Shown here piece by piece: positions 1 to 29,036 of a stretch of 39,492 nt of DNA. This DNA is from a virus. The position numbers and the translations under genes were made by a program. The stretch lies in the IMG/VR virus record IMGVR_UViG_3300022200_006582, positions 1 to 39,492 of that record; one strand, given 5' to 3'. Position 1 is the first letter of the stretch, and each line of letters opens with the position of its first letter. The notes beneath the pieces are model-generated. The model was given only the letters and a program-made list of their open reading frames with translations, did not search any database and was not told the DNA's origin.

Positions 1-1031
1 CCTCTATGGTTCTTCTGAATGTAATTAATACCTCTCTTGATTGCATCTGCGATTGCTGCGCCTGCTTCGACTGCTGATGCAACAGTTTCAACTGCTCCGT
101 TCCAAACCGCAACAGGAAGTCCTAAAGTAGCGTCAAATGCCTTACCTTTACCATCTATCTTTAGTGAACGAATATTAACAACTAATTCCTTAGCTCTTGC
201 TGCCTTTTCTTTAAGTAATTCTATCTCTGATTTTCCTTTACCTTCTGCTTTAAGTTGCTTTTCTTTAAACTTAAACTTCTCTAAAGGTGTTTCAAGCTCA
301 CCAAATCCTTCTTCAGCAAATTCTTTCTCTCTTGCAATATCTTCAGGAGTAATACCTACTTCTTCTAATTTTTGTTTTTGTTGGTAAAGCTTATCAATAG
401 CTTTATTTTTTTCCTTAACTGATTCAACGCCTTTTTCAACAGCTTTTGGAGTTATATTTTTACCAGTTAAATCAAAGTACCTTTCTTCTAATGCTTGTTG
501 AATGTTTGACTTCTTCTTCTCCTTAAAACCTTTCTTACTTCCATAATCCAAAACAAAATCAATAAAGTCATTAGGCTCTACCCTCATTCCTATATTATTC
601 TGTAATTCTTCTGATTGACTATCTAATCCATCGCTTTTATTTGATGAATCAATATATCTTTGGCGTATTTCAGGCGTAAGCAAATTTGGGTCACTGTATT
701 CTCTCCAATCACTTTCGTTAATCTTGCCCTTGCTTCCTAAGTAATCACTTATTTGAGATTCCAAAAAGTCTGTTTCTTCTATTGTTGGCAAGTCATTAAA
801 CTTTGCAGCAATAACTTTTGGGTCTGTTTCCCTTGAAATATCGTATAATTCAGCTTCCTCTTCAGTATCAAATTCTGTCTTTTCAACCATTTCGGCTTTT
901 TTAACAAAATCACTATCATCAATAATATTATCCTTAACCATTTGGTCAAGAAGTCCATCATGCAAAATAGCTGCATACTCTTCAAAAGAGTATTTTTTAC
1001 CACCAAAAGTAATTATACAAGGACTTGCCAT
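1..1031 (-). CDS. Large virion or polyvalent-type protein, C-terminus cut by window edge
   Basis: An open frame starts with ATG at 1031 (MASPCIITFGGKKYSFEEYA) and runs off the left edge after about 343 codons. The first 100 residues are acidic. The middle (about residues 190-290) is Lys/Glu-rich and probably coiled coil. Near the break is an Ala-rich segment (LGLPVAVWNGAVETVASAVE) like those in very large polyvalent or internal virion proteins of Bacteroidota phages. It follows the ferritin-like gene by 6 bases, so it belongs to the end of the virion operon and may be injected with the DNA. No catalytic motif is visible in the part present. Function is unknown; that it is a real gene is well supported. 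Confidence 0.7.
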   Translation of the reverse strand, partial: MASPCIITFGGKKYSFEEYAAILHDGLLDQMVKDNIIDDSDFVKKAEMVEKTEFDTEEEAELYDISRETDPKVIAAKFNDLPTIEETDFLESQISDYLGSKGKINESDWREYSDPNLLTPEIRQRYIDSSNKSDGLDSQSEELQNNIGMRVEPNDFIDFVLDYGSKKGFKEKKKSNIQQALEERYFDLTGKNITPKAVEKGVESVKEKNKAIDKLYQQKQKLEEVGITPEDIAREKEFAEEGFGELETPLEKFKFKEKQLKAEGKGKSEIELLKEKAARAKELVVNIRSLKIDGKGKAFDATLGLPVAVWNGAVETVASAVEAGAAIADAIKRGINYIQKNHR

Positions 1032-1037
1032 AGAATA

Positions 1038-1538
1038 TTATGCGAAAAGCTTCTTCTCTAAAAGTAATAAGTTCATTTTATCTTTAGGATTTACTCCTTC
1101 AAGCATATTTAATTTGTCAGAATATTCGGCTACTGATTTTCGCTGAATTGTACGGTATTCCTGTAAAAAGTCAAACGTGCATAAATCACCTGTTTTAAAG
1201 ACTTTCATGCTCGTATCTTCATATTCTTCATACAGCTTGTATTCAATCACGTATGCCTTATCTAATGCAGCCACAAGGTCACTAAATTCAAGTTCAGGCA
1301 TTTCAATCTTAGGCAAATTAGGTGTTACGTTCCAATCAACAAGATATTTTTCAATTCCTTTTGCATGACCAAATTCATCTTCGCTTTCTTTAGCAAAAAA
1401 TTCAGCAGCAGTAAAGTAGCCAACACCTTGACACCAATTACTTATAGCACGATACAAATAAGCTGCATCAAATTCATCTTTTAGTCTTGGTAATAGCAAC
1501 TTTACTATTTCCTGTGGTAGTTTAATTGGTTTTTTCAT
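1038..1538 (-). CDS. Ferritin-like protein (FtnA-type four-helix bundle)
   Basis: 166 aa, close to the length of bacterial ferritin FtnA. By-eye alignment to E. coli FtnA keeps the ferroxidase ligands: Glu22 (DEFDAAYLY, for FtnA E17), Glu55 and His58 (ESEDEFGHA, for E50/H53), Glu99 (VIEYKLYEEY, for E94) and Gln132 (for Q127). The sixth, FtnA E130, is Ser135 here, so site B may be altered. The NWC near residue 35 and the TFDFLQEY segment (TFNFLQWY in FtnA) also match. Ferritins oxidise Fe(II) and store it as ferric mineral in a 24-mer shell. The gene lies between virion-type genes in the late operon, so the product could be a virion part, an iron scavenger in the infected cell, or a structural re-use of the fold. 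The family call is good; the role is inference. Confidence 0.82.
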   Translation of the reverse strand: MKKPIKLPQEIVKLLLPRLKDEFDAAYLYRAISNWCQGVGYFTAAEFFAKESEDEFGHAKGIEKYLVDWNVTPNLPKIEMPELEFSDLVAALDKAYVIEYKLYEEYEDTSMKVFKTGDLCTFDFLQEYRTIQRKSVAEYSDKLNMLEGVNPKDKMNLLLLEKKLFA

Positions 1539-1548
1539 TGTATTTTAA

Positions 1549-4500
1549 TTAAGGGCAGTTACCTTCTTTTTTAAGCAATCCTTTTGCTTCTAATTGCTTA
1601 CTAATATTAGACCAGTTATCATCAACATATTTTATTGATGGGTTTTGCTCCATAAATGTACGCCTTTTAGCAGATAAGGTACGTTTCTTTGCGCTTCCTT
1701 CCGTACCACTAATATCGTAGAATAAATTGACTGCTTTTTCAAATAGAACCTTAGTATTTACTTTGGCTTTTAATCTTGGTGCAGGTTTTGTTTTTGCAGG
1801 GGCAACTTCCGGCAATAGAGGAGTAATGAGCTTATCATACTTGTCATAGATTTCTTCTCTTTTTGCTTTATCTGTCGGGTCATCCATAGCAGCATACTCT
1901 GCTTGCTCTTTTGCTCTTAGTTGTTCTACTTTTTGCGCAGGAGTTTGTTGTGCTTCTTGGGTAGCGGCAGTTGCCTCTTTTTCACCCTTAGCCCATTGAT
2001 TAATTTGGTCATACTCGCCTCTAACAGAGTCTGGGGTAATACCGACATACGCCTTAACGACCTCCTTTAGTTTATTTACTCCAGCATTTGCCTTTGATAC
2101 CTTTTGGCCAGTAATGGCTTCTATGATAAACGCTCTTTTAGAAGCATTTGAATCTCCAGCTAGTCTAGAAATATCCCCATTAACTGAAGAAAGAATTTGC
2201 TTGACCTTACCTATCTTTACTTCTTCTTGCTTACCTTCTTGGGTAAGGCCTTCAGGTTTTGCTTCGGGTTTTCCTTGCTCCACTTCTTCGCCAACTGTGG
2301 CTTCTGGCTGAACAGGAACTTCGCCTGCTGTTTCGACTTGAATGGCATCTTCTTTAAGTTTAAGTTGTTCTACTTTTTCAATTTCTGGTTCAACACCTGC
2401 AACCTTTTCTGTGCTGGCAATTTGGCTAACATCTCCTTCAGTTGATTCAAGCTCTCTTGCCTGCTGAACTGCTTGTTCGATTTGACTGTCTGTTGCATTT
2501 TCTTCAAAGCTTTTAAGTGTGTATTGATATGCTATTTCTTGCGCTCTTTGCCCCCTGATTGTTCTTTTTTGCTGATTGTCAGTTTCTAAATTTATAGATA
2601 TAACATTACCTTCTTTATCATAATTAATAGCAGCCATAGGGTCGCTATAATTATTAAACAATTTATTACCATCAATATTTACTGAATTATCATCACCAAC
2701 TTGAATGTTTAATTCTGATTCTTCTTTTAAACCAAGCTCACTTATTTTTTTATTGCTTATTTCATCTATATTACCTAATTCTGTAACTCTATCATTAGAT
2801 TCAAAAACAACCATTCCATTTTCTTCTGTGTAAAGGCTTCCCTTTTCACCATCCATTGTAAAAATCTTTGGTTGATTTATAGCATCAGATACAGAGTAAT
2901 CTTTTACTCCTTCAGGTTCTGGAACTAAATTCTTTTCTCTTTCTTCAATTTCTTTTATCTTTTGCTCATAAGTAACTTGGTCACCTGTTTTCTTATACTC
3001 TTCTTCAGCAGCTTTACCCTCTGCTATTAATGATGCTTCTGTATCAAATGTTGGCTTGGATAACTTAAACTTAGCATCCAATTCAGCTTGCGCATCCTTT
3101 AAATCCTGTTCAAGTATAGCTTTTGTTGTTTCAGAAATAAATTCATTTTGCAGATATTCCTTAATATTTTCAATCTTATCAGCCAATTCAGCGACTTCTA
3201 ATTTTACTTCTTCAGGAAGATTTTTTATATCATTTCTGTTTTCATCAAGAGTATTATTTATTTCTTCGGTAATTGCTTCAAGCTTTACCTCTAATTGTTC
3301 TTTGACAGTATCAGGAATAGCTTCATTATCTAAGTCATTAACAATATCATCTCTTTGCTTACTTAGCTTTTCTACTTTGTCTTTAGATTTTCTATTTTTG
3401 TAAATATCAATACCTTTTCTGATTGCACTTGCTCCTAATCCTTGTGCGCCACCGACAATTCCTGCATCAGCAACCCCATCCATTATACCCCTATTCGGGT
3501 CTTCTCCTGTTGCTATTGCAATAAAGTTTTGAGATAAGGTTGTAGCCATCTCTTCAGCAGCGTTAGAAACAACATCTGTTACTGGCTGAACCTTCGATAG
3601 CACCTTTTTAATATAATTGTAAGCCAAATCCTTTATTGACTTAGCAGCTACATCTGCTCCTTGCTCGGCAATTACCTTTGTTGCTCCTTTTAAAATAGCA
3701 GTAGTACCAAATTTTCCTTCAAGAAGAATTTCTGACAATCCATTAAATGCTGCATTTACAGGCTTTAACCACTCTGGAATATTTTCATTTTCCAATAATG
3801 CTTGATTTTGCGCAGATGCAAATGGTAAAGCAGTAGCAATTTTACTTGAAATAGAACCTAACTTAGCTGCATTGGCAGCCCCACCACTTACAAACATGGC
3901 CGCAATAGAAGGAGCAGAACCTATAACATTATCATATATTTGAAGTCCTGCACCTGGAAAATCACCATTTGCTAATTGGTCAAATACGCCTTCATCGTAT
4001 TGTCTTTGACGAGATTGCCATTTTTCTTCTTGACCTTTGGTATAATCCCCTGCATATTCTAAGTACGCTAAAGGATTAAATGTTCCCTTAGATACATTTT
4101 CGTAGTTTGCTTGCAATCCGGGAATATCACCTAAATCGGCTACTAAATTTTGTGGAATAGCAAACACATTGTATATGTATCTTGGAATTTTATAAAAAGA
4201 AGAAACTGTTCCTTGTATTCCTGAAAGCAATGGTGCAATATTCTCATAACCTCCCTCAAATGCCATCGGCTCTTTGCCTGATTGCGCCCTTGCTTGGTCT
4301 GCCATTTCATCACCTTGATAGGTTCTGTATGCGTTCTCTGCATTTTCTATTTGCTTCTGTAATGCAGTTTTCTTTTCAGTAAACTTATCAGTTGTTAATT
4401 CCCTGAAATCAGTTCCTTTTGTTAAGCTTTCGCCCAATAATTGCCCCTCTGTCATTGCAGTTGGTTGCATTCTTGGAATCTCACCGTATTTTCTAAGACT

Positions 4501-4824
4501 TGGAACTTCAGGAAGAGTTTTTTGAATTTGTTTGGCTGCCTTCATAGCACCACCTACTCTGCCAAACTGTGTTGGTATATTTAATAAAGTAGTTTCAAAC
4601 CTTTTACCTATACGTTCTTTTTCTTTATAAAGTTTTTGAGCTGAAGGGGTTAATACACTTGGAACTTCAGTATCTACTTGGGGAAGGAAATTCTCTAAGC
4701 CAGCTGATGAACGCCTTGAAGTAGTTGGAGCAACGCTTTCGACAAGATTTTTTTTTTCCAATAAGTCTTGTGGCTTAGGCAATCCTTTACTTAATAAATC
4801 ACTTGGTTTTGGTAATTCAGCCAT
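1549..4824 (-). CDS. Very large internal virion (ejection-type) protein, 1091 aa
   Basis: It starts with a duplicated Pro-rich motif (LPKPSDLL then LPKPQDLL within the first 25 residues). Residues about 200-380 hold several hydrophobic, Ala/Gly-rich segments, for example NVIGSAPSIAAMFVSGG, that could insert in a membrane. A long charged, coiled-coil-prone section follows (about 470-640), then Glu/Gln/Pro-rich linkers and a conserved-looking C-terminal segment of about 70 residues ending GLLKKEGNCP. Size, composition and position with two other internal-type proteins fit a podovirus ejection protein or large polyvalent protein delivered into the cell. No lytic transglycosylase or peptidase motif was recognised. 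It overlaps the upstream gene by one base (TAATG), so the two are translationally coupled. Confidence 0.72.
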   Translation of the reverse strand: MAELPKPSDLLSKGLPKPQDLLEKKNLVESVAPTTSRRSSAGLENFLPQVDTEVPSVLTPSAQKLYKEKERIGKRFETTLLNIPTQFGRVGGAMKAAKQIQKTLPEVPSLRKYGEIPRMQPTAMTEGQLLGESLTKGTDFRELTTDKFTEKKTALQKQIENAENAYRTYQGDEMADQARAQSGKEPMAFEGGYENIAPLLSGIQGTVSSFYKIPRYIYNVFAIPQNLVADLGDIPGLQANYENVSKGTFNPLAYLEYAGDYTKGQEEKWQSRQRQYDEGVFDQLANGDFPGAGLQIYDNVIGSAPSIAAMFVSGGAANAAKLGSISSKIATALPFASAQNQALLENENIPEWLKPVNAAFNGLSEILLEGKFGTTAILKGATKVIAEQGADVAAKSIKDLAYNYIKKVLSKVQPVTDVVSNAAEEMATTLSQNFIAIATGEDPNRGIMDGVADAGIVGGAQGLGASAIRKGIDIYKNRKSKDKVEKLSKQRDDIVNDLDNEAIPDTVKEQLEVKLEAITEEINNTLDENRNDIKNLPEEVKLEVAELADKIENIKEYLQNEFISETTKAILEQDLKDAQAELDAKFKLSKPTFDTEASLIAEGKAAEEEYKKTGDQVTYEQKIKEIEEREKNLVPEPEGVKDYSVSDAINQPKIFTMDGEKGSLYTEENGMVVFESNDRVTELGNIDEISNKKISELGLKEESELNIQVGDDNSVNIDGNKLFNNYSDPMAAINYDKEGNVISINLETDNQQKRTIRGQRAQEIAYQYTLKSFEENATDSQIEQAVQQARELESTEGDVSQIASTEKVAGVEPEIEKVEQLKLKEDAIQVETAGEVPVQPEATVGEEVEQGKPEAKPEGLTQEGKQEEVKIGKVKQILSSVNGDISRLAGDSNASKRAFIIEAITGQKVSKANAGVNKLKEVVKAYVGITPDSVRGEYDQINQWAKGEKEATAATQEAQQTPAQKVEQLRAKEQAEYAAMDDPTDKAKREEIYDKYDKLITPLLPEVAPAKTKPAPRLKAKVNTKVLFEKAVNLFYDISGTEGSAKKRTLSAKRRTFMEQNPSIKYVDDNWSNISKQLEAKGLLKKEGNCP

Positions 4825-6281
4825 TATTTCACTTTTATAACCCCTTGTTTAACTCCTTCATTAATTTGTTCATCAGACCATCCTGCCGATTTCCATTCAG
4901 ATTTTGTAGCTGAAGGTATTGTAGACTTTATGGGTTCAACAGGTTTTTCAGATTTTGTATTTAATACTTCATTAAAACTCTTATCAACTGCTCTTAATAC
5001 AGGTAGATAATATTTTTTATCTGTTCTTATATCAACAGGCAAGTCCCTAAGATTAATTACATACTCTTCACCCTTTACTTTAATGGTAGCTTTTAACTCA
5101 ACACCGCCACCTTCTGTTTTGCCATATCCAATACCTGTTAAATTAACAGCATCTTCCGTATTTAAAGGTTCATTCTTGCCTTTATCAATATTAAATGCCT
5201 GTGTTAATTGTGGCATTTGGAAGGATGGAGGATTAACTGTTGAGTATGCAACAAAATCAGCAGTAACACCCTTCCCCTTTCTTACCTGATTCCCCTTTGC
5301 ATCCAATACAGGCTTTCCTGTTTTGGTACTTTTTTGGGGCAATCTTGTTCCTGTAAAAGTTTTTGGAGATACGTTTATGCTTTCGTTAATACCACCCTCT
5401 TCGCTTGATAATCTATTTTCTCTACGTATAGCCAAATTCTGCATTGTAAAATCTTTATCTGGCTGAAAAGTAGGTTTAGAAGATTCTTCTTTAATCCTTT
5501 GCTGAACTAATAATGGAATAGCTTGTGCCTTTAATTGCTCTTTTGGTAAATCAGCTAAATCTGGGAACATCTCACGAAGTCCTGCTTGAAACTTTCTATC
5601 TAAATCAAATAATGAAGCATAAGCAGTAGCTTGTTTTTTAGGGTCTATTGCTCTCTTATTGTAAACATAAACTCCCTGCTGATTACCCTGCATTGCTTTT
5701 TCCGTAATAGGGGCAGACCATTGAGAAGATTGAAGAAGATTCTTATCTAAAGCATCTAAATCTTTGGTTAGTTTGCTTAAATCAGGTCTTATCTGAAACT
5801 GATTCATATCCCTAATATAATTAGGGTCATCTTTAGCTAATGAACTTGATTTTACTATTCGTTCAATTACTGCTTCATCATATCTATCCCTTACGTTAGG
5901 GTCTAAAAGCATTTTCTTTCTATCCTGCTCATTTCTCAATTCATTCTTTGAATCATCCTTGTACATGAAAGTGGCAAGCTTTTCCTTTTCCGCTTCTTGC
6001 TTTAAAAGTGCTTTTTTAGTTGGATTTCTCTCGGCATCTGCTTCAATAGCTTTACTTCTCCATTTACCAAATTGGTCTACGAACCCTTGAACATCTGGTT
6101 GCCTTAATCCTTCAGGAGTAATTTTACCTAATTCATCTGCCAATTTTTTTGTTTCAGCTTCACGCCTTAACTGTTGCTGCTGCATCAATTTGGCATAGGC
6201 ATTTACAGGCGCACTTGTGTCGTAAACCTGTGCTGCACCACTACCTAAACCACGAGAAATATTTGCTCCTCCGTCAGACAT
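4824..6281 (-). CDS. Internal virion-type protein, 485 aa
   Basis: Hydrophilic protein. After a Gly/Ser-rich start it has a long alpha-helical, Gln/Lys/Glu-rich region (residues about 30-130, with QQQQLRREAETKKLADELGK) that looks coiled coil. A mixed region follows, then a C-terminus with KSEWKSAGWSDEQINEGVKQ, a short helical motif often found at the ends of phage internal proteins. No enzyme motif is seen. Single-base overlaps with the genes on both sides (6281 and 4824) make a coupled three-gene cassette, consistent with an ejection or internal core complex. Function is inferred from position and composition only. Confidence 0.68.
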   Translation of the reverse strand: MSDGGANISRGLGSGAAQVYDTSAPVNAYAKLMQQQQLRREAETKKLADELGKITPEGLRQPDVQGFVDQFGKWRSKAIEADAERNPTKKALLKQEAEKEKLATFMYKDDSKNELRNEQDRKKMLLDPNVRDRYDEAVIERIVKSSSLAKDDPNYIRDMNQFQIRPDLSKLTKDLDALDKNLLQSSQWSAPITEKAMQGNQQGVYVYNKRAIDPKKQATAYASLFDLDRKFQAGLREMFPDLADLPKEQLKAQAIPLLVQQRIKEESSKPTFQPDKDFTMQNLAIRRENRLSSEEGGINESINVSPKTFTGTRLPQKSTKTGKPVLDAKGNQVRKGKGVTADFVAYSTVNPPSFQMPQLTQAFNIDKGKNEPLNTEDAVNLTGIGYGKTEGGGVELKATIKVKGEEYVINLRDLPVDIRTDKKYYLPVLRAVDKSFNEVLNTKSEKPVEPIKSTIPSATKSEWKSAGWSDEQINEGVKQGVIKVK

Positions 6282-6895
6282 TATGAAATTCCGTTACTAT
6301 AATTATTATACTTATTATACTTATTATAACCACCAGTTCCATCGCCTTGTTGACCACCCATATAGGTCAATCCAACTCTTGACAAATCAGAAAAAGCACC
6401 CATAACATTTTGCCTTCCTGCACCTTTTAAAGCTTCTGCTGCTGCTGCTTGCTCTTGATATTTACCAAATTTATCCCAAGACTGTTTAGCTAATTGTTGC
6501 TGACCAATCTGTGACCTATAACCCATAGCTGCTCTTTGATTAGACATACGTGCATTTGCATCTGCAACATCTAATCCTAATGTAGCATCCATACCTGCTC
6601 TTGCAAGTCCTGCAACATTTCCACCTCTGCCCATTCTACCAATTTGTCTTAATCCAGTAGTTTGACCTCTTTGGATATTTTGCAAACCTTGTGTATATTG
6701 CTGTTGAGGAAGGCCAACCCTGCCCATGTTTTCAGCAATAGCTAAATTTTGCTGAAATGCTGGTGGAATCTCATAAGTAGGTCTTATATTTTTCTTAGCA
6801 AGTTTAGCTCCTTTAGCTCCTTGAAATATTCCTTGAATACCTTTCAAGGCTGCTGGGGCTGCTGAAATTAATGCTGCGGCTATTGCTGGTGCCAT
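6281..6895 (-). CDS. Small internal virion protein with hydrophobic N-terminus (gp14-like)
   Basis: 204 aa. Residues 1-30 are an Ala-rich hydrophobic stretch (MAPAIAAALISAAPAALKGI) that could insert in a membrane. The centre is Gln/Arg/Gly/Ala-rich and helical, and the C-terminus is a Gly/Asn/Tyr-rich tail (residues about 180-204, repeated YNKYN). This layout resembles the small ejection protein of T7-like phages (gp14), but no sequence match is claimed. It is first of three coupled internal-protein genes and has its own TATATTTG box just upstream (6912-6919). Confidence 0.65.
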   Translation of the reverse strand: MAPAIAAALISAAPAALKGIQGIFQGAKGAKLAKKNIRPTYEIPPAFQQNLAIAENMGRVGLPQQQYTQGLQNIQRGQTTGLRQIGRMGRGGNVAGLARAGMDATLGLDVADANARMSNQRAAMGYRSQIGQQQLAKQSWDKFGKYQEQAAAAEALKGAGRQNVMGAFSDLSRVGLTYMGGQQGDGTGGYNKYNKYNNYSNGIS

Positions 6896-6911: not shown

Positions 6912-6940
6912 CAAATATAACTTTAAATATTCTACTTTTT
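6912..6940 (-). promoter_or_regulatory. Putative Bacteroidota-type promoter for the internal-protein module
   Basis: The minus strand reads TATATTTG at 6919-6912, a perfect TAnnTTTG -7 box, 16 bases upstream of the ATG at 6895. An AAAAA tract lies at 6940-6936, about where a -33 element would be; its spacing is 2 bases shorter than in the four similar sites listed elsewhere. Confidence 0.45.
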
Positions 6941-7234
6941 AATTTGGTACTCTTCGTAAATACCTTCCAATTTCATTAAATTATGACAACCTTCAATATT
7001 TATCGCATAAAACTTCTTTTTAGAAATACCATAAAAAGCTTTTAGCTTATCTACATTACATATCAATGGTCTTTCATTATATACTTTGCACATATTGTCA
7101 TCACCAAGCATCTCACATCTACCTGATTTATCCCATTTATACGGAAAATTAAATTCAGGTCTTGTGTTTATTATATCTTTAGCATTGTCAATATGCCTAC
7201 AACAAGCTCCACATCCTGTGCATGGGAAACCCAT
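6932..7234 (-). CDS. YkgJ-family Cys-cluster (zinc/iron-chelating) protein
   Basis: 100 aa. The start FPCTGCGACCRH gives Cys5, Cys8, Cys11 and Cys12, the CxxCxxCC signature of the YkgJ/UPF0153 family. The second half of the signature follows: GRCEML, then CKVYNERPLIC, with a further Cys in IEGCHNL. Family members are thought to bind zinc or an iron-sulfur centre; their reaction is unknown. The start codon overlaps the stop zone of the 308-aa tail-associated gene, so it is co-transcribed with late genes. With a ferritin-like gene 5 kb downstream in the same operon, a shared link to metal is possible but unproven. Confidence 0.8.
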   Translation of the reverse strand: MGFPCTGCGACCRHIDNAKDIINTRPEFNFPYKWDKSGRCEMLGDDNMCKVYNERPLICNVDKLKAFYGISKKKFYAINIEGCHNLMKLEGIYEEYQIKK

Positions 7235-8205: not shown

Positions 8206-9069
8206 TTATTTACTAAACAAAGTCTTGAAATTATCGTGGTTACCCCAATATGGATGTTCATGAAAATAAGAGTTTTTACTATACACATTGTAATGAGAAG
8301 TGAAGTGATGGCCATGATTAACATGGATTGAAGGGTTAACGCTTTCCCATTGTTTTCTTTCCATATCCTGTGGTTCAATAAGACCACTATTTTTTATCAA
8401 TGCGTTGCATAAAATACTTTCGCAATGATGAATAGCATCTTCAAAGTTCATTGTCATTTGATGAAAAGGTTCATCTCTTTGACCTAATGGCTGAAAACCA
8501 AATTCATTAACACCCATATAATTCATATTTGTTATAATAACTCCCTTTTTAAATTCAGGAAAATCAAAATAACCATCTCCGTACATTACATCATGCTCTA
8601 AAAAACTAACATACTTATAGCTATGAACTTCTCTTGCAGTATATAACAGTTGCATTATTTGCAGTAGCTGATTCAAATGGGAATAGGTTTGTGTCCAAGC
8701 TATATATTCCCTGAATGGATTTTCAGGCTCGCTACACCACATACAAGTATAAATATCTGCTTTGCCTTCTGAAACCTTTTCTAATTGCTTCAAAGAACTT
8801 ACAATAGTTTTGTTTGTTTCTGGATTGGTATTGTTTGAATAAAATATTCCAAGTCTGTCATTGACAACTTCAGGGTAATTAATTATATCGCCTTCTTTAG
8901 CTTTAATAATATTACCATTATCCAATTCAATGGATAGATACTTAACTACTCCCGGACTTGTATCACCAAAAATAGAATTACAAGCTCTAACCAAAAGCTT
9001 ATTATTTTTTATTTTAGATTTAACTATATCAGTTACATCAATATTACCATAAGTAGCTGATTTTATCAT
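8206..9069 (-). CDS. Glycosyltransferase-like protein with N-terminal DUF3395-like domain
   Basis: Start chosen at 9069 because its ATG overlaps the upstream stop as ATGA; a longer frame to 9111 would overlap by 46 bases. Residues 1-66 (SATYGNIDVTDIV, then IFGDTSPGVVKYLSI and KEGDIINYP) match the pattern of the DUF3395 beta domain. Residues about 95-287 look like a glycosyltransferase-type catalytic region, with VSFLEHDVMYGDGYF (an acidic EHD in place of DxD), GVIITNMNYMGV and a His-rich C-terminus (HVNHGHHFTSHYN). It is coupled to another glycosyltransferase gene and sits directly after the Thr-rich tail gene, suggesting it modifies a virion protein. Acceptor and sugar are unknown. Confidence 0.62.
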   Translation of the reverse strand: MIKSATYGNIDVTDIVKSKIKNNKLLVRACNSIFGDTSPGVVKYLSIELDNGNIIKAKEGDIINYPEVVNDRLGIFYSNNTNPETNKTIVSSLKQLEKVSEGKADIYTCMWCSEPENPFREYIAWTQTYSHLNQLLQIMQLLYTAREVHSYKYVSFLEHDVMYGDGYFDFPEFKKGVIITNMNYMGVNEFGFQPLGQRDEPFHQMTMNFEDAIHHCESILCNALIKNSGLIEPQDMERKQWESVNPSIHVNHGHHFTSHYNVYSKNSYFHEHPYWGNHDNFKTLFSK

Positions 9070-10259
9070 ATCAATACGGAGTTTTTGGCTGTTTTTTGTA
9101 TTATGTTCCAATATTTTTCAGAAGAAGTATTTTCTTTTATTTTAATATCAGAATTATATGGAAGCTTATCTCTAAAGTCACCCTTAAAAAACAATCCATC
9201 TTTACCTGAAACAACTCCTGCATTATGGTAAATATTGCAAAGACTAAATCTATCTATATGAGAAGTTGCCCAACAAAAATCAAAATTTTCATGAACTTTT
9301 GTTTCAAATCCTAATCTCCAAGCACCCCATAATACTGCCCACATATCAGCAGTCCATATTTGCAATTCATGGTATTCAGGATTTTCTTCTTTCTTAATAT
9401 TGTTTATATCGGTAATCTGCTTAAATAATTGCTCACTATCAGATTCAACTCTTTCCCAATAGGAGTAAGTCACATTTTTCATTAAATATTGTGCGCCAAT
9501 ACAATTCTTTTCATTATCAAGAATAACTCTTTTATTAATGGATGTTATCTCACACATTTTATTTAATATATCATCACCTTTAGATGATATGTAAGAGTGA
9601 GAAATATATGAATTTGTGTTAGAGCCATACCAATGATTATCTTTCAGCATATCCTCTGTAATCCATTCCTTAATAGGCTTTGTAAATACAATATCGCAAT
9701 CATGATAAAATATAGCTTCTTCGCTTAATTCAGGATAACGCTTCCAATGATGTTTTAAAATATTGGGTCTTATAGAAGAAATGTAATGCTTTGTAATTCT
9801 TGTATCATCATAGAAGAAAAAACGAGCAGGATATGCTCCGGCAAGCTTTGACCATTCAACAGGAATAACTCCATTAATCTTCCAGCAAACAACATCAACC
9901 TGATTAAGATTAACACCCATTTCTAAAAAGTTTTGAAGCATTACTTCAACTTGCCAAGCGTAATAAATAATAGCAGGCTGTGCAGATACAAATCTTAGTG
10001 TTTTAATATCAGTGTGTTTTATAAATTGATTATCTACTTCATCCCATTTTTTTTCAGGACAAGCACCTTTCACAGGCGAATATACCTTTTTGTTTAAAGG
10101 GCATGTACAAATATTGCATATTTTTTTAAAAATAGCATTTTCACCCTTGTGTTCACAAGAATTACAAACCTCTAATCTTTTTGATGCTAACTCAATTTGC
10201 TCACTATTAGGATTAAAACTTACACCCCAAGCAGTAAACAATTCTATTAGTTTATTCAT
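9066..10259 (-). CDS. Fusion of Cys-rich zinc-binding domain and glycosyltransferase-like domain
   Basis: Start set at 10259, where ATG overlaps the stop of the tail gene (TAATG), giving 397 aa. Residues 32-67 hold six cysteines (C32, C35, C48, C51, C53, C67) arranged as CNSC, then CNICTCPL, then SPVKGACPEKKW. This is a small zinc-binding module usually found as a stand-alone phage protein. Residues about 80-397 resemble a GT-A-type transferase: HDCDIVFTKP supplies a DxD (D187, D189), preceded by ARFFFYDD and followed by WTADMWAVLWGAWRLG. Translational coupling to the 1300-aa Thr-rich tail protein makes that protein an attractive acceptor, which is inference. Confidence 0.68.
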   Translation of the reverse strand: MNKLIELFTAWGVSFNPNSEQIELASKRLEVCNSCEHKGENAIFKKICNICTCPLNKKVYSPVKGACPEKKWDEVDNQFIKHTDIKTLRFVSAQPAIIYYAWQVEVMLQNFLEMGVNLNQVDVVCWKINGVIPVEWSKLAGAYPARFFFYDDTRITKHYISSIRPNILKHHWKRYPELSEEAIFYHDCDIVFTKPIKEWITEDMLKDNHWYGSNTNSYISHSYISSKGDDILNKMCEITSINKRVILDNEKNCIGAQYLMKNVTYSYWERVESDSEQLFKQITDINNIKKEENPEYHELQIWTADMWAVLWGAWRLGFETKVHENFDFCWATSHIDRFSLCNIYHNAGVVSGKDGLFFKGDFRDKLPYNSDIKIKENTSSEKYWNIIQKTAKNSVLI

Positions 10260-13200
10260 TAACCAATTATTGTTGTTGTCGTAGTTGTTGTTATTGAACC
10301 GCAAGCATTACAATCATAATCTGCTGAACAAGGAGTTCCACAATTTGTTACAGTTAAACCTGTGGCATATATAGGTGTTCCATTATCAACACATATATTT
10401 ATTATGTAACCAGCAGGAACACTTACAGTAGTTTCTCCACTTGCACAAGGAGTGTATGTAATATCTAAAGCACCTCCTGTTTCATTTTCAATTTCATAAC
10501 ATATACAAGGATAAGTTGTCGTAGTCGTTGTGGTTGAAGTTGTTGTACTTGTCGTAGTCGTACTTGTCGTAGTTGTTGTAGTTGGAGGCGGCTCTAAAGT
10601 AGTTGAAGTAGTAGTCGTTGTCGGCTCTAAAGTAGTCGTAGTTGAAGTAGTAGTTGTTGTCGGTTCTAAAGTTGTTGTGGTAGAAGTCGTTGTTGTTGTC
10701 GGCTCTAAAGTTGTTGTAGTAGTTGTTGTAGAAGTCGTAGTAGTAGTTGTAGTTGTTCCTGCGGTAGTAACATCAAAATCAACAACTCTACAATTAACGG
10801 TTAATGTAGCAGTAGTTTTTGTACTTGGTGTACCAGAACTTGTTTGCCTTACTTCAACAATATCATTATTAACAACAACACCTGCTAAACTTGTCCAAGA
10901 ACCGCCATTGATTCTATATTCTCCACCTATAATAGTAACAGGAACAGAAATATCTATTCCGTATATATTTACAGCATTTGAAGTATATACCGTACTTAAA
11001 GAAGCACCTGTTATTTCACCAAATACAAAGTTATTAGGACAAGGATTTCCTGCTGTAATTGTAATACATACATTCTTTGTTTTTGGTATTCCACCAACAG
11101 TAAAGCCAAAACTAAATGAATCAGCCCCTGTCTGTCCCGAATTTGGAGTATAAGTTGCAATACCTGTTGTATTATTATACGTAGTTACACCTTTTGTTCC
11201 TTGCGCAGTTATGCTTATTGCGCTTGGTAAAACAGTATAGCTATCTTCTAATTGCCAATTAAGACCATCAAATCCCGGAACAGCTAATATATCGCCTTCG
11301 GTTTCAGTAGATAGCAAATATTCATTATTGAATATATCGTAATAGCCAATAATTTTCTTTCCACTCTCATAGGCTTGTTGCAAAACTCTTTTGAAATATT
11401 TGCTCATTTTACCAGAAATAGGAGCTATGCCATCTAATCCTGTTTTAATAGGTTCTGAACGAAAAGGGTCTACAAAATATAAATTGTTGTTCCATTCTGC
11501 ATAGGATTCTTTAGCGTTACCCATTCCTATATTTAATCCATTGTAACGTATAAAGTTAAATAGCTTAAATGATAATGCGTATTGCGAACTACCTGATTGG
11601 TCTTCAACTATTGTTTGAGATACAGGGATATAACCTACCTTTAATTCTTGAAAACAAACGAGTACATTATTTCTTTGACGTATTTTACGAATCCAACCAT
11701 AATTTGAAGAACTTTCACCATCTATATCTCCGTATATATTATCAGTATAAAATCTTGTAAGTCCATTGACTTGTGAATCCCTTAAAAAAGAATCAGAGTA
11801 ACGTATGCTTGCCTTTCTTTCGACTAAACCCGGCTCGTCATTATAACTTCTTGGCCTTCCGTAAGAAGTGTAAGCACTTTCATAAAAATCACTAAAGTTA
11901 AAATCCTCTACTAAGAAACTATATGGAGGAGGAATGTTTGGATTTACAGCACTATAAAGACTTCTTGTTTTAAAGTAAACATCGCCATCTGTTATAGTTC
12001 CTACTTTCGTTACATAATCTCCATTTACAATATTTATTTGGTCACCAACCTCATAAAATAATTGTTCAGCAGGAACGGTAGCATTATTTTCAACTATATC
12101 ACGCAATCTTGGAGTATAAATTTCAAGCATTACGTTCTTTCCAGAAATAGCAGCAGTATTTAAAAGTTCAGCCTTCCTTATTTTTAATAAATATTTACCA
12201 TTGTTTGCGTCTATAACAAAACTCACAACTTCTACATCAAAAGCAGGACTATCAAAATAATTATATGTTGTTCCATCAATGTAGAACAATAATGTACATC
12301 TATCTCCCGGAGTATAATCATAATTTAATACTGAAGAACTGTTTACTTCATTGAATTTTTTTAATGGAGATAAGTTAAATGTAACGTAATCATCAGTTGG
12401 TATTGCGTCAAGAACACCGTTTACCATTAATGTAGTTTGATGCGTATTGTTTTTAGTAATTGCCCATTGTGCAGAAACGGCTTCCGCAGGAGGCAAACTT
12501 TTTATCTCCCAATTTATTTGTGGAGTTAAACCATAAGAGCCTGTTGTGTTAGCACTATTTATTACTGCATAAGAAGGAGTATTAATGACATATTCCTTTC
12601 CACTAACCATAGGGAAATATCTACCCCATCTATCAAAATGTAATAATGCAAGTTGATAACTTGAATTACTCTTTAAAGCATGAATTGATTTAAATGTGGC
12701 TGCACCTGCACTTGCTAAAGTAATAGCACAATCCAAGAAAGTATATCCTGATGGAGCTTTTATTGTTAAAATAGTAAATGCAGGATTGTCAAAATCTAAC
12801 CCCCAAGCATAAGTGGGAGATAATGCAGAATACAAACCGTTCATTACTGAACCTAAGTTTACAGAAGTCGCAGTATATCCACTTGGAGCAGGAAGTGTCA
12901 ATATATTTGAATAATCATCTATTTTTTTATATCTAATAATTATTTTATCGCCAATAGCAGGAGTTCCTGCAAAATAAAGGTATTGAAATGTATTAACTTC
13001 AGGAGTATACCAATTAACAGTCATTCCAGTAGGGGGAAGAGTGACACTCAACAATGGGTCGTATGCACTTACCTTTATATCTACTTCAATAGTTGGTCTT
13101 GGGTAACCTTCTGTAATGCCACCCATAGCCAATATATTACCATTGACATTTTCTAATGTTTCGCATTTTAATGGAACGTGGTCATAGTTTAAGTCGGTTT

Positions 13201-14161
13201 CTAATGGGTCGATATTGGTATATAACCCATTGTTATAAAAGGCAATGCTGTAAATATTGGTTGCAGGATTGTATGCTTCATAAACCTGAGTAGCTACATT
13301 TATCGTAGCAGGTAAAGACAATATATAAGCTCTGCTTGCACTCTTTATGGTAAACCAATCGTAATTGGAATACCTCGCACATACATTGACTTGATTTACT
13401 CTATTTGTTCCAATATTTAATTGTACAACAATATGATTATTATTAGTTACGTTTGTACCAATAGCTGGTGTAGATTCTTGCGTAGGAACAGGCCTTTTTG
13501 ACCTTGTACTCCAAGCTGAATGTTCACCCTCTGAATACACATACTGGTAGCCAAATTGAAATAACTTTCCCTGAAGTAAATTTACAGACTGACCCTCATC
13601 ATTTCCATAAGCACAAATTGCAGGTATTAATCCTTGCGCTTTAATGACAAGCATATCATCTTGCGTTAAGCTACCATATAATGAAGTATATGTTCCTGCT
13701 GCAAGCTTATCTATGTTTATCATTCTTGGCTGCATCCTGCCATCAGTCCACGCCAAAAACTTATCATTAATTAACTTAATATCATTTACATAATATTCAG
13801 GGTTTAATGGAAGTATATCAACAGATGCACTATTTGTTAGATTTTCAAATATGTTTGTTTGCGTATTTGTGTCATACGCAAGTTTTGTAATTAAGTTTTT
13901 GTTTTGAGAATTATATACGAAAGCATACGCATTTCGAGTTATTTCAAATCCTGCTGCACCAATAGCTTTATTCAAACCTGCTGGCCTTGTTCCTGCAATT
14001 AATACATTAGATTCAATATTTGTTGCAAGACCCTCTTCACCTTCTGAAGTACCCATAACCCTTACGTTATAAGCATCAACAAAATCTGTTTGCTCAATAA
14101 ATTCGTAAGCATCATCGGTGTCCATTCCACCTTGACGAAATAACTTGATATTCTCTGCCAT
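10259..14161 (-). CDS. Large tail protein (stabilization/muzzle-type) with mucin-like Thr-rich C-terminal stalk
   Basis: 1300 aa. The N-terminal ~950 residues resemble the large tail 'stabilization' protein of Bacteroidota podoviruses: an early DTDDAYEFIEQTDFVDAYNV, then LINDKFLAWTDGRMQPRMIN, similar to the WTDGxxxPRxIN motif. Around residues 1010-1080 is an Ig/cadherin-like repeat (TYTPNSGQTGADSFSF), followed by another beta domain (about 1080-1175). Residues about 1178-1250 are almost only Thr, broken by Ser and LEP (repeated TTTTTSTTTTLEP). The last 75 residues form a Cys-rich domain (PCICYEIEN, CGTPC, DCNAC) ending in a second Thr run. The stalk and terminal domain probably project from the virion for receptor contact. 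Coupling to glycosyltransferase genes suggests O-glycosylation. Confidence 0.78.
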   Translation of the reverse strand: MAENIKLFRQGGMDTDDAYEFIEQTDFVDAYNVRVMGTSEGEEGLATNIESNVLIAGTRPAGLNKAIGAAGFEITRNAYAFVYNSQNKNLITKLAYDTNTQTNIFENLTNSASVDILPLNPEYYVNDIKLINDKFLAWTDGRMQPRMINIDKLAAGTYTSLYGSLTQDDMLVIKAQGLIPAICAYGNDEGQSVNLLQGKLFQFGYQYVYSEGEHSAWSTRSKRPVPTQESTPAIGTNVTNNNHIVVQLNIGTNRVNQVNVCARYSNYDWFTIKSASRAYILSLPATINVATQVYEAYNPATNIYSIAFYNNGLYTNIDPLETDLNYDHVPLKCETLENVNGNILAMGGITEGYPRPTIEVDIKVSAYDPLLSVTLPPTGMTVNWYTPEVNTFQYLYFAGTPAIGDKIIIRYKKIDDYSNILTLPAPSGYTATSVNLGSVMNGLYSALSPTYAWGLDFDNPAFTILTIKAPSGYTFLDCAITLASAGAATFKSIHALKSNSSYQLALLHFDRWGRYFPMVSGKEYVINTPSYAVINSANTTGSYGLTPQINWEIKSLPPAEAVSAQWAITKNNTHQTTLMVNGVLDAIPTDDYVTFNLSPLKKFNEVNSSSVLNYDYTPGDRCTLLFYIDGTTYNYFDSPAFDVEVVSFVIDANNGKYLLKIRKAELLNTAAISGKNVMLEIYTPRLRDIVENNATVPAEQLFYEVGDQINIVNGDYVTKVGTITDGDVYFKTRSLYSAVNPNIPPPYSFLVEDFNFSDFYESAYTSYGRPRSYNDEPGLVERKASIRYSDSFLRDSQVNGLTRFYTDNIYGDIDGESSSNYGWIRKIRQRNNVLVCFQELKVGYIPVSQTIVEDQSGSSQYALSFKLFNFIRYNGLNIGMGNAKESYAEWNNNLYFVDPFRSEPIKTGLDGIAPISGKMSKYFKRVLQQAYESGKKIIGYYDIFNNEYLLSTETEGDILAVPGFDGLNWQLEDSYTVLPSAISITAQGTKGVTTYNNTTGIATYTPNSGQTGADSFSFGFTVGGIPKTKNVCITITAGNPCPNNFVFGEITGASLSTVYTSNAVNIYGIDISVPVTIIGGEYRINGGSWTSLAGVVVNNDIVEVRQTSSGTPSTKTTATLTVNCRVVDFDVTTAGTTTTTTTTSTTTTTTTLEPTTTTTSTTTTLEPTTTTTSTTTTLEPTTTTTSTTLEPPPTTTTTTSTTTTSTTTSTTTTTTTYPCICYEIENETGGALDITYTPCASGETTVSVPAGYIINICVDNGTPIYATGLTVTNCGTPCSADYDCNACGSITTTTTTTIIG
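10512..10770 (-). repeat. Thr-codon tandem repeat region inside the tail gene (39-bp units)
   Basis: On the plus strand the marker GGCTCTAAAG (GGTTCTAAAG once) recurs at 10590, 10623, 10662 and 10701, with spacings of 33, 39 and 39 bases. This corresponds to a 13-aa protein unit (TTTTTSTTTTLEP) with one shortened copy. Thr codons are mixed (ACT, ACG, ACA, ACC), so the protein repeat is kept while the DNA has drifted. Such arrays change copy number by slippage or recombination. Confidence 0.8.
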
Positions 14162-17583: not shown

Positions 17584-18921
17584 TTAGGATTTCTTTAGAA
17601 TAACATACTGATTCGCAGCGAAAACCATCACTCCGTAGTATGCTTGCTGGAATACATCTAATTCCAACTTGGTAGTCTTACCGTTAGGTGAAAGACCTCC
17701 AGTTTCTCCGATAACAACCTTTCCGAATCCCGGAATGTTTTGGTAACGAATACAGAAGTTAGGAACAATGTTCTTAGTTCTTGCATCAGTACCTGTACCT
17801 TTAGGGATAAGTAAACCAAAGTTATCACGAGTAGTTCCTGCAACATTATTGCCATAGAAAGCTGCTTGTGAGAAAGGCAAGTAACGAGTGAAGTTGTACT
17901 TACGATGGTACGGAGTGAATGACTTAAATCCTCTTGCAAGGTCTAAATTATCCATGTTACCTGTTTGTGCGTACAAAATAGCACCGTTATTGAAGTCATT
18001 GCCCAAAGCATTCTGGATTTCAATACTTTGATTAGTATCTGACAACCAATCGTACTCACCGGGCCCGCCTTGACTATCAATCTGACGCTCAATTTGAGCA
18101 AAAGTAGTCTGCGCTCCCATAGTGGAGTAGTATTGAGTTGTTCCGTTTGCTTGTACTTGCTGGATAACACCTGCTGTACCTGATTCGTTGTAACCCAAGT
18201 TGTTAGTCAAGTTTGAATCCATAAGAGCAACTTCTTTTTGAAGCATCATCTCATAGTTATCATCCTTCAACTGCTTGTACTTGTAAAAACGCTGTCCATC
18301 AATTTCAAAGTCAATTCTTTCTGCCATTGACAAATCGGTGAACTTACTATCCTTACGAATTTGAGTACAGTAGTTGGTGTACTTGTCGATGTTACGAACT
18401 TCAGTACCTGTGTAATCAGATGCTTCACCTAAGTATTTGTAACCTCTGTTCTGTAATACATCACCTGCAAGAGTTGAAGCATTATCAGTAACAATTACTG
18501 GAGTTAATACAAATGTGTGAGCATAAGGAGTTGACTTATTCGGAACTGCACTTACACGAGATTCAACTCCTGTACGAGCATTGTAATAAATCTGTCCTTC
18601 ATTTGGTAGAGAACGAGTACCTGAAGCTGAATAAGCTCCTGCTGCAACTGTAATAGTAGCTGGCGCACCTGCTGATACAGAAACTGCTGCTGAAGACTGT
18701 ACGAAGCCCATAGCACGACCTGCTTGCTCATACCAATAGAACAATTTGTTATCAGTAGGCATTTCGTTACCTGCTAATTCGTTCATCATAACAATAGGAA
18801 CAAATTTCCATTTGTCAATAAACTGATTGTATGCACGAGGTACAATGATGTTAAGCTCACTAATGAGCGTGCCGGCTCTGGTTACAGAGGGGGTGGTAAA
18901 ACTTGATGGTAAAGCTGACAT
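17584..18921 (-). CDS. Major capsid protein
   Basis: 445 aa, a usual length for HK97-fold capsid proteins. Position supports the call: portal, then acidic scaffold-like protein, then this gene, then a strong terminator, the standard head-gene order. The N-terminus (SALPSSFTTPSVTRAGTLIS) is followed by a helix (PRAYNQFIDKWKFVP) and an Ala/Ser-rich region. The middle has many aromatic and charged residues (IDFEIDGQRFYKYKQLKDDN) with a long helix (YEMMLQKEVALMDSNLTNN). The last ~100 residues are beta-rich (NIVPNFCIRYQNIPGFGKVV). No long cleavable N-terminal delta domain is evident. Third base composition seems richer in G/C than its neighbours, as expected for a highly expressed gene. Confidence 0.85.
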   Translation of the reverse strand: MSALPSSFTTPSVTRAGTLISELNIIVPRAYNQFIDKWKFVPIVMMNELAGNEMPTDNKLFYWYEQAGRAMGFVQSSAAVSVSAGAPATITVAAGAYSASGTRSLPNEGQIYYNARTGVESRVSAVPNKSTPYAHTFVLTPVIVTDNASTLAGDVLQNRGYKYLGEASDYTGTEVRNIDKYTNYCTQIRKDSKFTDLSMAERIDFEIDGQRFYKYKQLKDDNYEMMLQKEVALMDSNLTNNLGYNESGTAGVIQQVQANGTTQYYSTMGAQTTFAQIERQIDSQGGPGEYDWLSDTNQSIEIQNALGNDFNNGAILYAQTGNMDNLDLARGFKSFTPYHRKYNFTRYLPFSQAAFYGNNVAGTTRDNFGLLIPKGTGTDARTKNIVPNFCIRYQNIPGFGKVVIGETGGLSPNGKTTKLELDVFQQAYYGVMVFAANQYVILKKS

Positions 18922-20087: not shown

Positions 20088-22583
20088 TTACATCATTTGT
20101 TCTTCTTCGCCCTGCATCATTTCTTCTTCACCCATATTCATTTGTTCTTCGCCTTGCATCATTTGCTCTTGCTCCATGCCTTGTTGTTGCTGTTGCATCA
20201 TTGCTTCTTCTTCTTCAGCAGCCATTTGCTGTGCCATTTGTTGCGCTTCTCTTTCATTTTCAGCTAACTCTTCCATCAACAACTGCTTATTTGTTTTATC
20301 AATAAGACCTATACCATCAAATATCATTGAAGGGAGTTGCTCCATAGTTTTGCCCTGTGCAAACAATGCTTTCATCAACTCAATCTTCATGATACTTGCA
20401 TACTTGGTCATCTCTTCAGTCTTCATTGCTTCAAGCCTTTCGTTTTCCCTTTCCTTCTCTAAATCATTTTTTAACTGAATGACTTGCATTTCTCCATTTG
20501 ACTTGGCCTCAGCAGCAGCAATAGCAGCTTCAGTATTTGATTGAGAATTTAATTGAGCTTCTTTAATGCGTTGCTTTTCACGCTTCTTTTGTCTTGAAGC
20601 CAATAAATAAGAAGCATACTTTACATTCGTTTGAGATAGCTCTTCTACTTGCAAAGCATCTTGTAAAGTAATTTCTTTATTACCTAATGCAATGTTAATA
20701 CGCTCTTTCAATATAGCCTGTGCAGTATCATCTAAAACAGCTTCAATCTTAACATCAAATTGCGCTCTTTCAAAGTCATCAGTAGATTCCAAACGAATAT
20801 ATTCAACCTTGTCATTACCCAAAGCAGCCATATATCCTTCATATCCACCTTTCTTATAAACGAGAATATCCCAACCCAGCTGCTGAACTTTTTGTGCAGT
20901 CGGTTCCATGATATTTAGATAAGCATTGTATATGTAATTTGAAGCACTCTCGCCTTGCTTACGAGCATCTTGGAATACCTGCTTACCAACAGCTTGATTA
21001 TTTATTTGGCCTGAATCTAAGGCATTAGAACCAATAATAGTCACAAGTTTTTGGTATTCAGACTGCCATTGTTGTTCTAATTGTTGTAATTTATTGGAGA
21101 AATTTACATTGTTTGGTGTAATAGGAGGTTGTCTTCTATCTTCTCCATTATCGCCAATACCCTTATAATACATATTACCTGTTTGTAGGTATATTCCATA
21201 AAGCTGTAAAGGAGAAACAACGCCAATACCTGAACCTAAATCAATATCAGATAGTCCTGCAAAATCAATATTTGAACCATCTGGAGCAATCGTAGCAATA
21301 ATATTTTGTGTTTTAAGATTCAACAACTGCATCATCTTAATACTTGGAATCATAGTTTCAATCAATGGAGTATTTACCATTTGATTGTTATTGTACATAT
21401 AAACCGTATATGGAGAAAGTATCTCTGTAAGATTCTTCTCTGGCTTAATCATGTTTTTACTTAATCCCCATTCAAGAACTTTATCTGTATTTATTATGTA
21501 AGCACCTGTATAACTTACATAATACGGCTTAGATTTTTCATACTCTTTGCCTTCTTTTAATTCTTTAGCTGGGTCTAATATCTCTTTACCAAATCTATCT
21601 GTTTTCTTTTCGTAATTAAGATTGTAAAGAGTTTTGTAAGTCAAATTGCATACTTGAACACGATATGAATCGTAGGGTCTTGCAACAGCATTTAACCAAA
21701 CATAAGACCAGTTATAAGTCCATAAAGCATTATTAAATAACCCTGAATGTTCTTTTGCTAAATCAAATAATTGTTCTTCAGAAAACTTTCCAGGATATTT
21801 TAAACGAATATCGGTAATAGTCATATAATCAACTTCACCCTGCCATTCCCAATCCCTCATATCATTCCATTCAGAATAAGAAGTAATGAAATTATCGGGC
21901 TTAACAAACTTTAGTTTTATCCTCCCATTTGGGTCAATATATGTTTTAGTTACTGAGTAACCACAATTAATTAAATCATCAAAAACCCTATCCTTAATTA
22001 CCTTGCTCCATTTATTATCATAAAAAACAAGATTAATCAGGTTCTCCATAACTACTTCTTCACGTTCCTTGTAGTTAAATCCAAACTCAATATCTAATTC
22101 TTGTTCATCTTCAGGGTCTGTATCTTTAAACTCCTCCAACTCAAAACCTGCATCCTGCTGTAAGGCTATAATTTCTTCCTTGTGCTTCATTTTGAACAAG
22201 GCTTCATTCTTGGCTTTTTCTTTTTTTGATTGAGTAAATGGGTCAATAGAAACACAGCTTATTTTTTCAACTCGCTGCATATATCTATCCTTCAAACGAT
22301 TAAGAAAAGGAATAGCAATAGGATTTGGAGTATATTGAAGATTAATTACAGATAACTGACCATCGGTATCAATAATATCTTTGTATTCCGACATCGGTTG
22401 CTTACCAACAGAAAATGAACGGTTATAATCAAACCTTTGTTTTTTTACTACCCAAGATTCAGAGCCATAGCCAGATTTCCATCTTTCATAACAAGCTTTT
22501 AGAACAGAAAAACCGAAAGCTTCCGAGTTTTTTTCTTTGTCTGAATCTAATGTATTTGGTAGTGAGGATTCGTGTATAGGCAT
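20088..22583 (-). CDS. Portal protein
   Basis: 831 aa, long for a portal but usual for crAss-like and related Bacteroidota phages. It sits between the large terminase and the scaffold. The N-terminal third has many Trp/Tyr and charged residues (RFDYNRSFSVGKQPMSEYKD, YTPNPIAIPFLNRLKDRYMQ), the middle has a Gly-rich turn (IDLGSGIGVVSPLQLYGIYL), and the clip/stem region is helical (FSNKLQQLEQQWQSEYQKLV, then NQAVGKQVFQDARKQGESAS). From about residue 700 it is a long coiled coil, and the last 50 residues are a Met/Gln/Glu repeat (EEEMMQGEE-type). The portal dodecamer forms the DNA gate and docks the terminase. Confidence 0.85.
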   Translation of the reverse strand: MPIHESSLPNTLDSDKEKNSEAFGFSVLKACYERWKSGYGSESWVVKKQRFDYNRSFSVGKQPMSEYKDIIDTDGQLSVINLQYTPNPIAIPFLNRLKDRYMQRVEKISCVSIDPFTQSKKEKAKNEALFKMKHKEEIIALQQDAGFELEEFKDTDPEDEQELDIEFGFNYKEREEVVMENLINLVFYDNKWSKVIKDRVFDDLINCGYSVTKTYIDPNGRIKLKFVKPDNFITSYSEWNDMRDWEWQGEVDYMTITDIRLKYPGKFSEEQLFDLAKEHSGLFNNALWTYNWSYVWLNAVARPYDSYRVQVCNLTYKTLYNLNYEKKTDRFGKEILDPAKELKEGKEYEKSKPYYVSYTGAYIINTDKVLEWGLSKNMIKPEKNLTEILSPYTVYMYNNNQMVNTPLIETMIPSIKMMQLLNLKTQNIIATIAPDGSNIDFAGLSDIDLGSGIGVVSPLQLYGIYLQTGNMYYKGIGDNGEDRRQPPITPNNVNFSNKLQQLEQQWQSEYQKLVTIIGSNALDSGQINNQAVGKQVFQDARKQGESASNYIYNAYLNIMEPTAQKVQQLGWDILVYKKGGYEGYMAALGNDKVEYIRLESTDDFERAQFDVKIEAVLDDTAQAILKERINIALGNKEITLQDALQVEELSQTNVKYASYLLASRQKKREKQRIKEAQLNSQSNTEAAIAAAEAKSNGEMQVIQLKNDLEKERENERLEAMKTEEMTKYASIMKIELMKALFAQGKTMEQLPSMIFDGIGLIDKTNKQLLMEELAENEREAQQMAQQMAAEEEEAMMQQQQQGMEQEQMMQGEEQMNMGEEEMMQGEEEQMM

Positions 22584-22607: not shown

Positions 22608-22638
22608 CAAAGATAAAATAAGTTTTAGTGATATTTTT
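22608..22638 (-). promoter_or_regulatory. Promoter for the portal gene
   Basis: The minus strand has TATCTTTG at 22615-22608 (perfect TAnnTTTG) and AAAAA at 22638-22634, exactly 18 bases upstream and overlapping the 3' end of the terminase gene. It lies 25 bases upstream of the portal ATG at 22583. Confidence 0.58.
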
Positions 22639-28902: not shown

Positions 28903-29036
28903 TTTGTAAATTTTACATGACCTTTTTTATACATATCCTTCAAGTCCTGATAAACCATTCTCTTAGACTTATCATCTGAAGTTTCAAATTCTCTATTAGA
29001 TATTTGCTTTAACTTACGGGCTTTCTTTCCGTTCAT
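28899..29036 (-). CDS. Small basic phage protein, 45 aa
   Basis: A short frame of 46 codons that fits both neighbours by ATGA overlaps (start at 29036 against the methyltransferase stop, stop at 28899-28901 against the glycosyltransferase start). The protein begins MNGKKARKLKQISNREFETS and ends MYKKGHVKFTK. The opening MNGKKARxL and a LKxxYKKG end resemble a family of tiny proteins found beside virion genes in Bacteroidota phages. It is basic, helical and without known function. The perfect overlap with both flanking genes is the best evidence that it is translated. Confidence 0.72.
   Translation of the reverse strand: MNGKKARKLKQISNREFETSDDKSKRMVYQDLKDMYKKGHVKFTK

Follow-up and report, generated by a model that had tools for sequence, protein, structure and literature searches.

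Phage ferritin genes have been described before: ferritin of freshwater phages is named among the genes for defence against reactive oxygen species (PMC6802176), and a viral bacterioferritin was found to be under purifying selection (PMC10904782). The passages found in these two papers do not discuss the position of the gene in a virion module, the clade of the protein or its ligands, and in the literature on phage-encoded or virion ferritin we did not find the gene position described. As to internal phage proteins, crassvirus cargo genes follow the muzzle gene (PMC10172136), and polyvalent proteins of other phages are inferred to be injected (PMC5512222).

The window analysed here (the whole stretch of 39,492 nucleotides of the record IMGVR_UViG_3300022200_006582) belongs to a lake-type bacteriophage. 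An earlier note, made from the sequence, had presented a ferritin in the virion module as a new angle. This stands in part: freshwater phage ferritin already counts as a ROS-defence gene (PMC6802176, as far as its relevant passages go), but the phage-specific H-type clade and the recurrent position in head or cargo modules appear to be new. The features of the window are as follows (L002 is the nearest relative, G312 and G313 are colinear relatives, and elemo is a Flavobacterium phage):

3–1031, minus strand: downstream giant ORF, N-terminal 343 aa, presumed cargo; runs off the contig end; 2075 aa in L002
1038–1538, minus strand: phage ferritin, 166 aa; putative H-type two-iron site Glu22/Glu55/His58/Glu99/Gln132 (with Tyr29 and Ser135); helix E 154–165
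1549–4824, minus strand: upstream giant ORF, 1091 aa, presumed internal-virion or cargo protein; in relatives a homologous ORF stands immediately before the ferritin gene
4824–6281, minus strand: 485-aa ORF of the same operon; colinear in G312 and G313
6281–6895, minus strand: 204-aa ORF; its positional equivalent, elemo gp20, is annotated as virion structural protein
10259–14161, minus strand: virion structural protein, 1300 aa (phrog_14478)
17584–18921, minus strand: 445-aa ORF in the position of the major capsid protein by colinearity (after portal and a 356-aa ORF); no PHROG match
20088–22583, minus strand: portal protein (phrog_6547)
22625–25753, minus strand: terminase large subunit with an apparent in-frame intein (phrog_6681)

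Fold and metal site of the ferritin

The ferritin ORF runs from an ATG at 1538 to a stop at 1038 on the minus strand, exactly at the position given earlier, and the plus strand across this region is closed by many stops. Residues 14–147 match Pfam PF00210 (Ferritin) with E 7.3e-22 and 78.3 bits (cut-off 24.5). The best solved relative by sequence (HMMER) is the ferritin of H. pylori (1.7e-15); the sole PHROG match, 16594, is annotated as function unknown. The AlphaFold2 monomer, built from an alignment of 27 phage sequences, has a mean pLDDT of 94.8 and consists of five helices (9–39, 42–68, 88–116, 119–145 and 154–165), i.e. a four-helix bundle followed by the C-terminal helix E. Foldseek superimposes the model on V. 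cholerae ferritin with a TM-score of 0.90–0.92, and VIA-align gives Z 23.6 to the same protein (3qz3); for human H ferritin, Z is about 23 with 165 residues aligned. The gene thus encodes a genuine full-length ferritin: the Pfam match and the structure prediction bear out the earlier assignment, and a fold of another type was not obtained.

In the HMMER alignment with H. pylori ferritin, Glu22, Tyr29, Glu55, His58, Glu99 and Gln132 sit on the known ferroxidase residues. All six are invariant in the 75 distinct phage homologues, one N-truncated fragment aside; the ligands Glu22, Glu55, His58, Glu99 and Gln132, previously picked out by eye, are therefore confirmed, and homologues in this position lacking them were not encountered. 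The third iron site C of FtnA (Glu49, Glu126, Glu129 and Glu130 in E. coli numbering) is a different case. Its residues align with Asp54, Ile131, Lys134 and Ser135, Ser135 falling on the Glu130 position as the earlier note had stated, so that this site, judged by the alignment, is degenerated in the phage ferritin. Positions 131 and 134 vary freely in the 75 homologues; position 135 is Ser in 53 and Ala in 22 of them, with no other residue.

In animal H ferritins the equivalent of position 135 is Ala or Ser (Ala144 in human H ferritin); these proteins lack the third site and oxidise iron rapidly. Since Ser or Ala is fixed throughout the family and is the residue type of animal H ferritins, Ser135 is better taken as a mark of an H-type two-iron centre than as decay, and the suggestion that it weakens the enzyme finds no support. 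With the third site lost, the protein looks like an H-type two-iron ferroxidase of a distinct phage subfamily.

Three other assignments were considered and rejected. The FtnA equivalog (NCBIfam NF007638) gives 44.1 bits against a required 178, and the third site is absent. For a bacterioferritin, residue 56 beside the di-iron Glu is Phe and not the heme-ligand Met (Met52 in E. coli); in the family alignment rows listed this position is Leu, Phe or Arg, and no Met was seen. A Dps protein is excluded by the ligands, which lie within one bundle and not across a subunit interface, and by helix E (154–165) in the model.

A phage-specific clade under purifying selection

The searches recovered 75 distinct relatives, nearly all of them viral, and the motif scans found 136 viral places that encode relatives. 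The same scan of 84,980 bacterial and archaeal species genomes gave a single match, which lies in an actinobacterial MAG on a contig of 3.2 kb; because the motifs were taken from the phage family, this result tells that the subfamily is viral and not that cells have no ferritin. The contig itself is probably of phage origin, since the 601-aa ORF downstream of its ferritin clusters with those of phage group B. In a profile search of 296 Actinomycetota genomes it scored 255 bits and every other gene at most 74 bits; among solved structures, the highest-scoring cellular ferritin has 88 bits.

In the tree a branch with full support sets all phage sequences apart, the cellular ferritins compared being those of the motif scan, the 296 Actinomycetota genomes and the solved structures. 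On these comparisons the phage ferritins form a distinct, phage-specific clade. Their single origin is provisional because the cellular sample is small and the tree contains no Bacteroidota ferritins. The tblastn search of 50,697 named phage records with three ferritins (window, L029 and L109 types) gave no match. BFVD holds several phage ferritins and Dps proteins, one of them 48% identical to the window protein. Three BFVD entries annotated as prohead proteases of uncultured Caudovirales (A0A6J7WIS1, A0A6J7WPK9 and A0A6J7XDU5) give weak ferritin-fold matches (E 0.008–0.015), a hint that some head proteins may carry a fused domain of the Dps/ferritin-like kind.

The gene is under strong purifying selection, with a median dN/dS of 0.066 over 107 homologue pairs, and is therefore not a chance ORF. 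Between the window and L002 the ferritin is 90% identical and its neighbours 37–78%, which makes it the most conserved protein of the operon compared.

Gene neighbourhood in the window and in related phages

As the earlier note had noticed, the ferritin gene stands among virion-type late genes: it belongs to a minus-strand block without interruption, which also contains the terminase, portal and tail genes and the ORFs in scaffold and capsid positions. In the order of transcription the block starts with the terminase large subunit, the portal, the ORFs in scaffold and capsid positions, several virion structural proteins and the 1300-aa virion protein. After glycosyltransferase-like ORFs it ends with ORFs of 308, 100, 204, 485 and 1091 aa, the ferritin, and the giant ORF cut by the contig end. 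The ferritin starts 10 nt after one giant ORF and ends 6 nt before the other. Some homologues of the upstream giant match elemo gp18, annotated “structural protein”; no virion proteomics of elemo was found in the literature, so this name rests on annotation. The L014 member of the downstream-giant cluster matches phrog_10089 (DarB-like antirestriction). Searches of solved structures with the 204-aa, 1300-aa and portal proteins returned no usable relative, and the promoter and terminator scan gave counts near those of shuffled sequence. A 69.5-kb relative (G003) is colinear with the window. Among named phages the portal has relatives in those of Flavobacterium, Cellulophaga, Tenacibaculum and Maribacter, and for this reason the host is likely a member of the Flavobacteriia.

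Several other genes of the block deserve a remark. The 1300-aa protein carries long threonine-rich repeats near its C terminus. The apparent intein of the 1042-aa terminase starts with Cys after ITIDE, contains a LAGLIDADG-like IIDTDGHC and ends with MN before Cys; the terminase relative in G312 and G313 has 698 aa and no intein. A 100-aa CxxCxxCC protein (6932–7234, minus strand; PF03692, putative zinc- or iron-chelating domain; 73% identical in L002) is possibly a second metal-related gene of the same late operon. Glycosyltransferase- and methyltransferase-like ORFs lie in or beside the operon (8206–10304 and 27919–31172, minus strand), the latter group colinear in G313.

Homologues with comparable neighbours were indeed found in other phages. 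Among 74 distinct ferritins at least 47 directly follow a same-strand ORF of more than 700 aa, and at least 32 of these also precede an ORF of more than 900 aa, both counts being lower bounds because many loci are truncated. The gap to the upstream ORF ranges from -13 to +34 nt; that to the downstream ORF ranges from -8 to +6 nt, apart from one case of 88 nt. In podovirus-like relatives the ferritin usually lies between giant presumed cargo proteins and often overlaps them. One upstream giant carries DUF3293, as does elemo gp18, a single ORF of 3694 aa (L142:2719-13803). This ORF is undivided and corresponds to the two giants that flank the ferritin in relatives; it matches the upstream giants in some ferritin relatives and the downstream giants in others. 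Its matches to the two flanking giants are ordered differently on the two sides, which suggests domain shuffling. By size and position the giant neighbours would fit cargo or polyvalent proteins.

Other lineages place the gene elsewhere. In L109 and six similar distinct loci the order is terminase, head-tail adaptor, portal, ferritin, MuF/DNA-pilot-type minor head protein and neck protein, with a maturation protease further along (the PHROG matches are those of L109, with which the other six loci cluster). In the myovirus-like L029 type the ferritin follows a DNA polymerase A-like ORF and comes before the genes for SSB, exonuclease and DnaB, and a baseplate gene lies upstream; in L115 and L119 it precedes an endolysin-like gene. 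G312 has no ferritin though it is colinear with the window across the whole late operon (33–64% identity). Its slot between a 365-aa ORF and the giant holds a 257-aa unknown ORF (L186:11481-12254) and, at 11090–11446, an ORF of 118 aa which on visual inspection looks like a GNAT acetyltransferase. Because of these other locations, of G312 and of the undivided giant ORF of elemo, the ferritin is, judged by gene order, an accessory gene in a variable slot of the late operon, and the content of the slot in G312 means that it may be a hot spot for accessory genes.

Possible role and comparison with known systems

Translation of the ferritin would take place late and in coupling with the giant cargo genes, and its subunits would assemble by themselves in the cytoplasm of the host to form a cage of about 466 kDa. 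We infer that this cage uses O2 or H2O2 to oxidise Fe2+, which it then keeps as a mineral. Free iron and Fenton chemistry would then be reduced while phage DNA is replicated and packaged and the host's own iron proteins are presumably being lost. Both the assembly of 24 subunits and the enzymatic activity are predicted from the sequence and the monomer model, in which helix E is present as in ferritins of 24 subunits.

We find it somewhat probable that the ferritin acts in this way, as an accessory and not an essential structural part, binding Fe2+ and lowering Fenton chemistry in the infected cell late in infection; its place among head and cargo genes would mainly set timing and dose, and its presence in the particle would not be required. 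Removal of Fe2+ and peroxide during DNA replication and packaging is the most economical reading. The locations near DNA polymerase A, SSB, exonuclease and helicase genes (L029) and before the endolysin gene (L119) are easier to reconcile with a role in the infected cell than with a structural one. Ferritin also occurs in similar places in dozens of related phages, which suggests that iron control late in infection matters to them. However, most of the recovered ferritins lie beside presumed ejected proteins, and those of the separate lineage between portal and MuF genes; this recurrence exceeds the needs of timing alone.

Packaging in virions, the main alternative, is possible, though we judge it rather unlikely. 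The ferritin would enter the capsid with the giant internal proteins, and there shield the DNA from Fenton damage and/or be delivered to the new host against early oxidative or iron-based defences. The giants flank it directly in most distinct relatives, often with overlaps of 1–13 nt, one downstream neighbour being DarB-like and one upstream sharing DUF3293 with gp18; in a second, unrelated head module the portal and MuF-type genes enclose it. The crassvirus cargo genes cited above have a similar place behind the muzzle gene, and the polyvalent proteins are presumably injected. However, no packaging signal was seen and group A ferritins have no N-terminal extension; lineages B and C lie outside cargo modules, the L029 and L115 types outside head and cargo genes, and the colinear G312 has no ferritin gene. 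The 466-kDa cage is also large relative to the portal channel, and since a 12-nm cage would not pass it, the subunits would have to be delivered unfolded or only partly assembled. A supply of iron for virion assembly, or a Ferrojan-horse route in which ferritin buffers host iron to fill iron-loaded tail proteins, appears improbable: the gene order suggests late co-expression with tail genes, and the CxxCxxCC putative chelating protein is in the same operon, but among the tail proteins of the window none was identified as iron-binding, and a colinear phage with the same tail genes has no ferritin. Phages do acquire host genes, yet a chance-acquired host ferritin with no selected role is highly improbable, being contradicted by monophyly among the sampled sequences, invariant ligands, the dN/dS of 0.066 and 90% identity against 37–78% for the neighbours.

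We know of no ferritin shown to be a virion component. Here viruses maintain a ferritin subfamily of their own, with a predicted H-type active site and a position that recurs next to portal and cargo genes. The question of where phages control iron, in the infected cell or within the virion, thereby becomes directly testable, and the subfamily is of relevance to the iron cycle of lakes when viruses lyse their hosts. A packaged ferritin, if real, would carry iron control into the next host or guard packaged DNA from Fenton damage.

Among known proteins, FtnA of H. pylori, V. cholerae and E. coli shares with the window ferritin the fold, length, helix E and the ligands of site A and core site B (24–29% identity, TM about 0.9). 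It differs in the third iron site, absent here, and in Glu130, replaced by Ser or Ala at 135, and the window protein stays far under the equivalog cut-off. Animal H and M ferritins have the same ligand pattern, including Gln at 132 and Ser or Ala at 135, and align over 165 residues at Z 23 with about 19–24% identity; this likeness appears to be one of site chemistry and does not imply descent. The freshwater phage ferritins of Kavagutti 2019 (PMC6802176) and the viral bacterioferritin (PMC10904782) are, in the passages found, likewise phage-encoded and come from freshwater or lake-sediment viruses. Polyvalent and internal cargo proteins (DarB, crassvirus gp45–gp50) resemble the neighbours of the ferritin in size and position, and one neighbour is DarB-like in sequence, whereas the ferritin, a small enzyme of one domain, carries no packaging signal that could be recognised.
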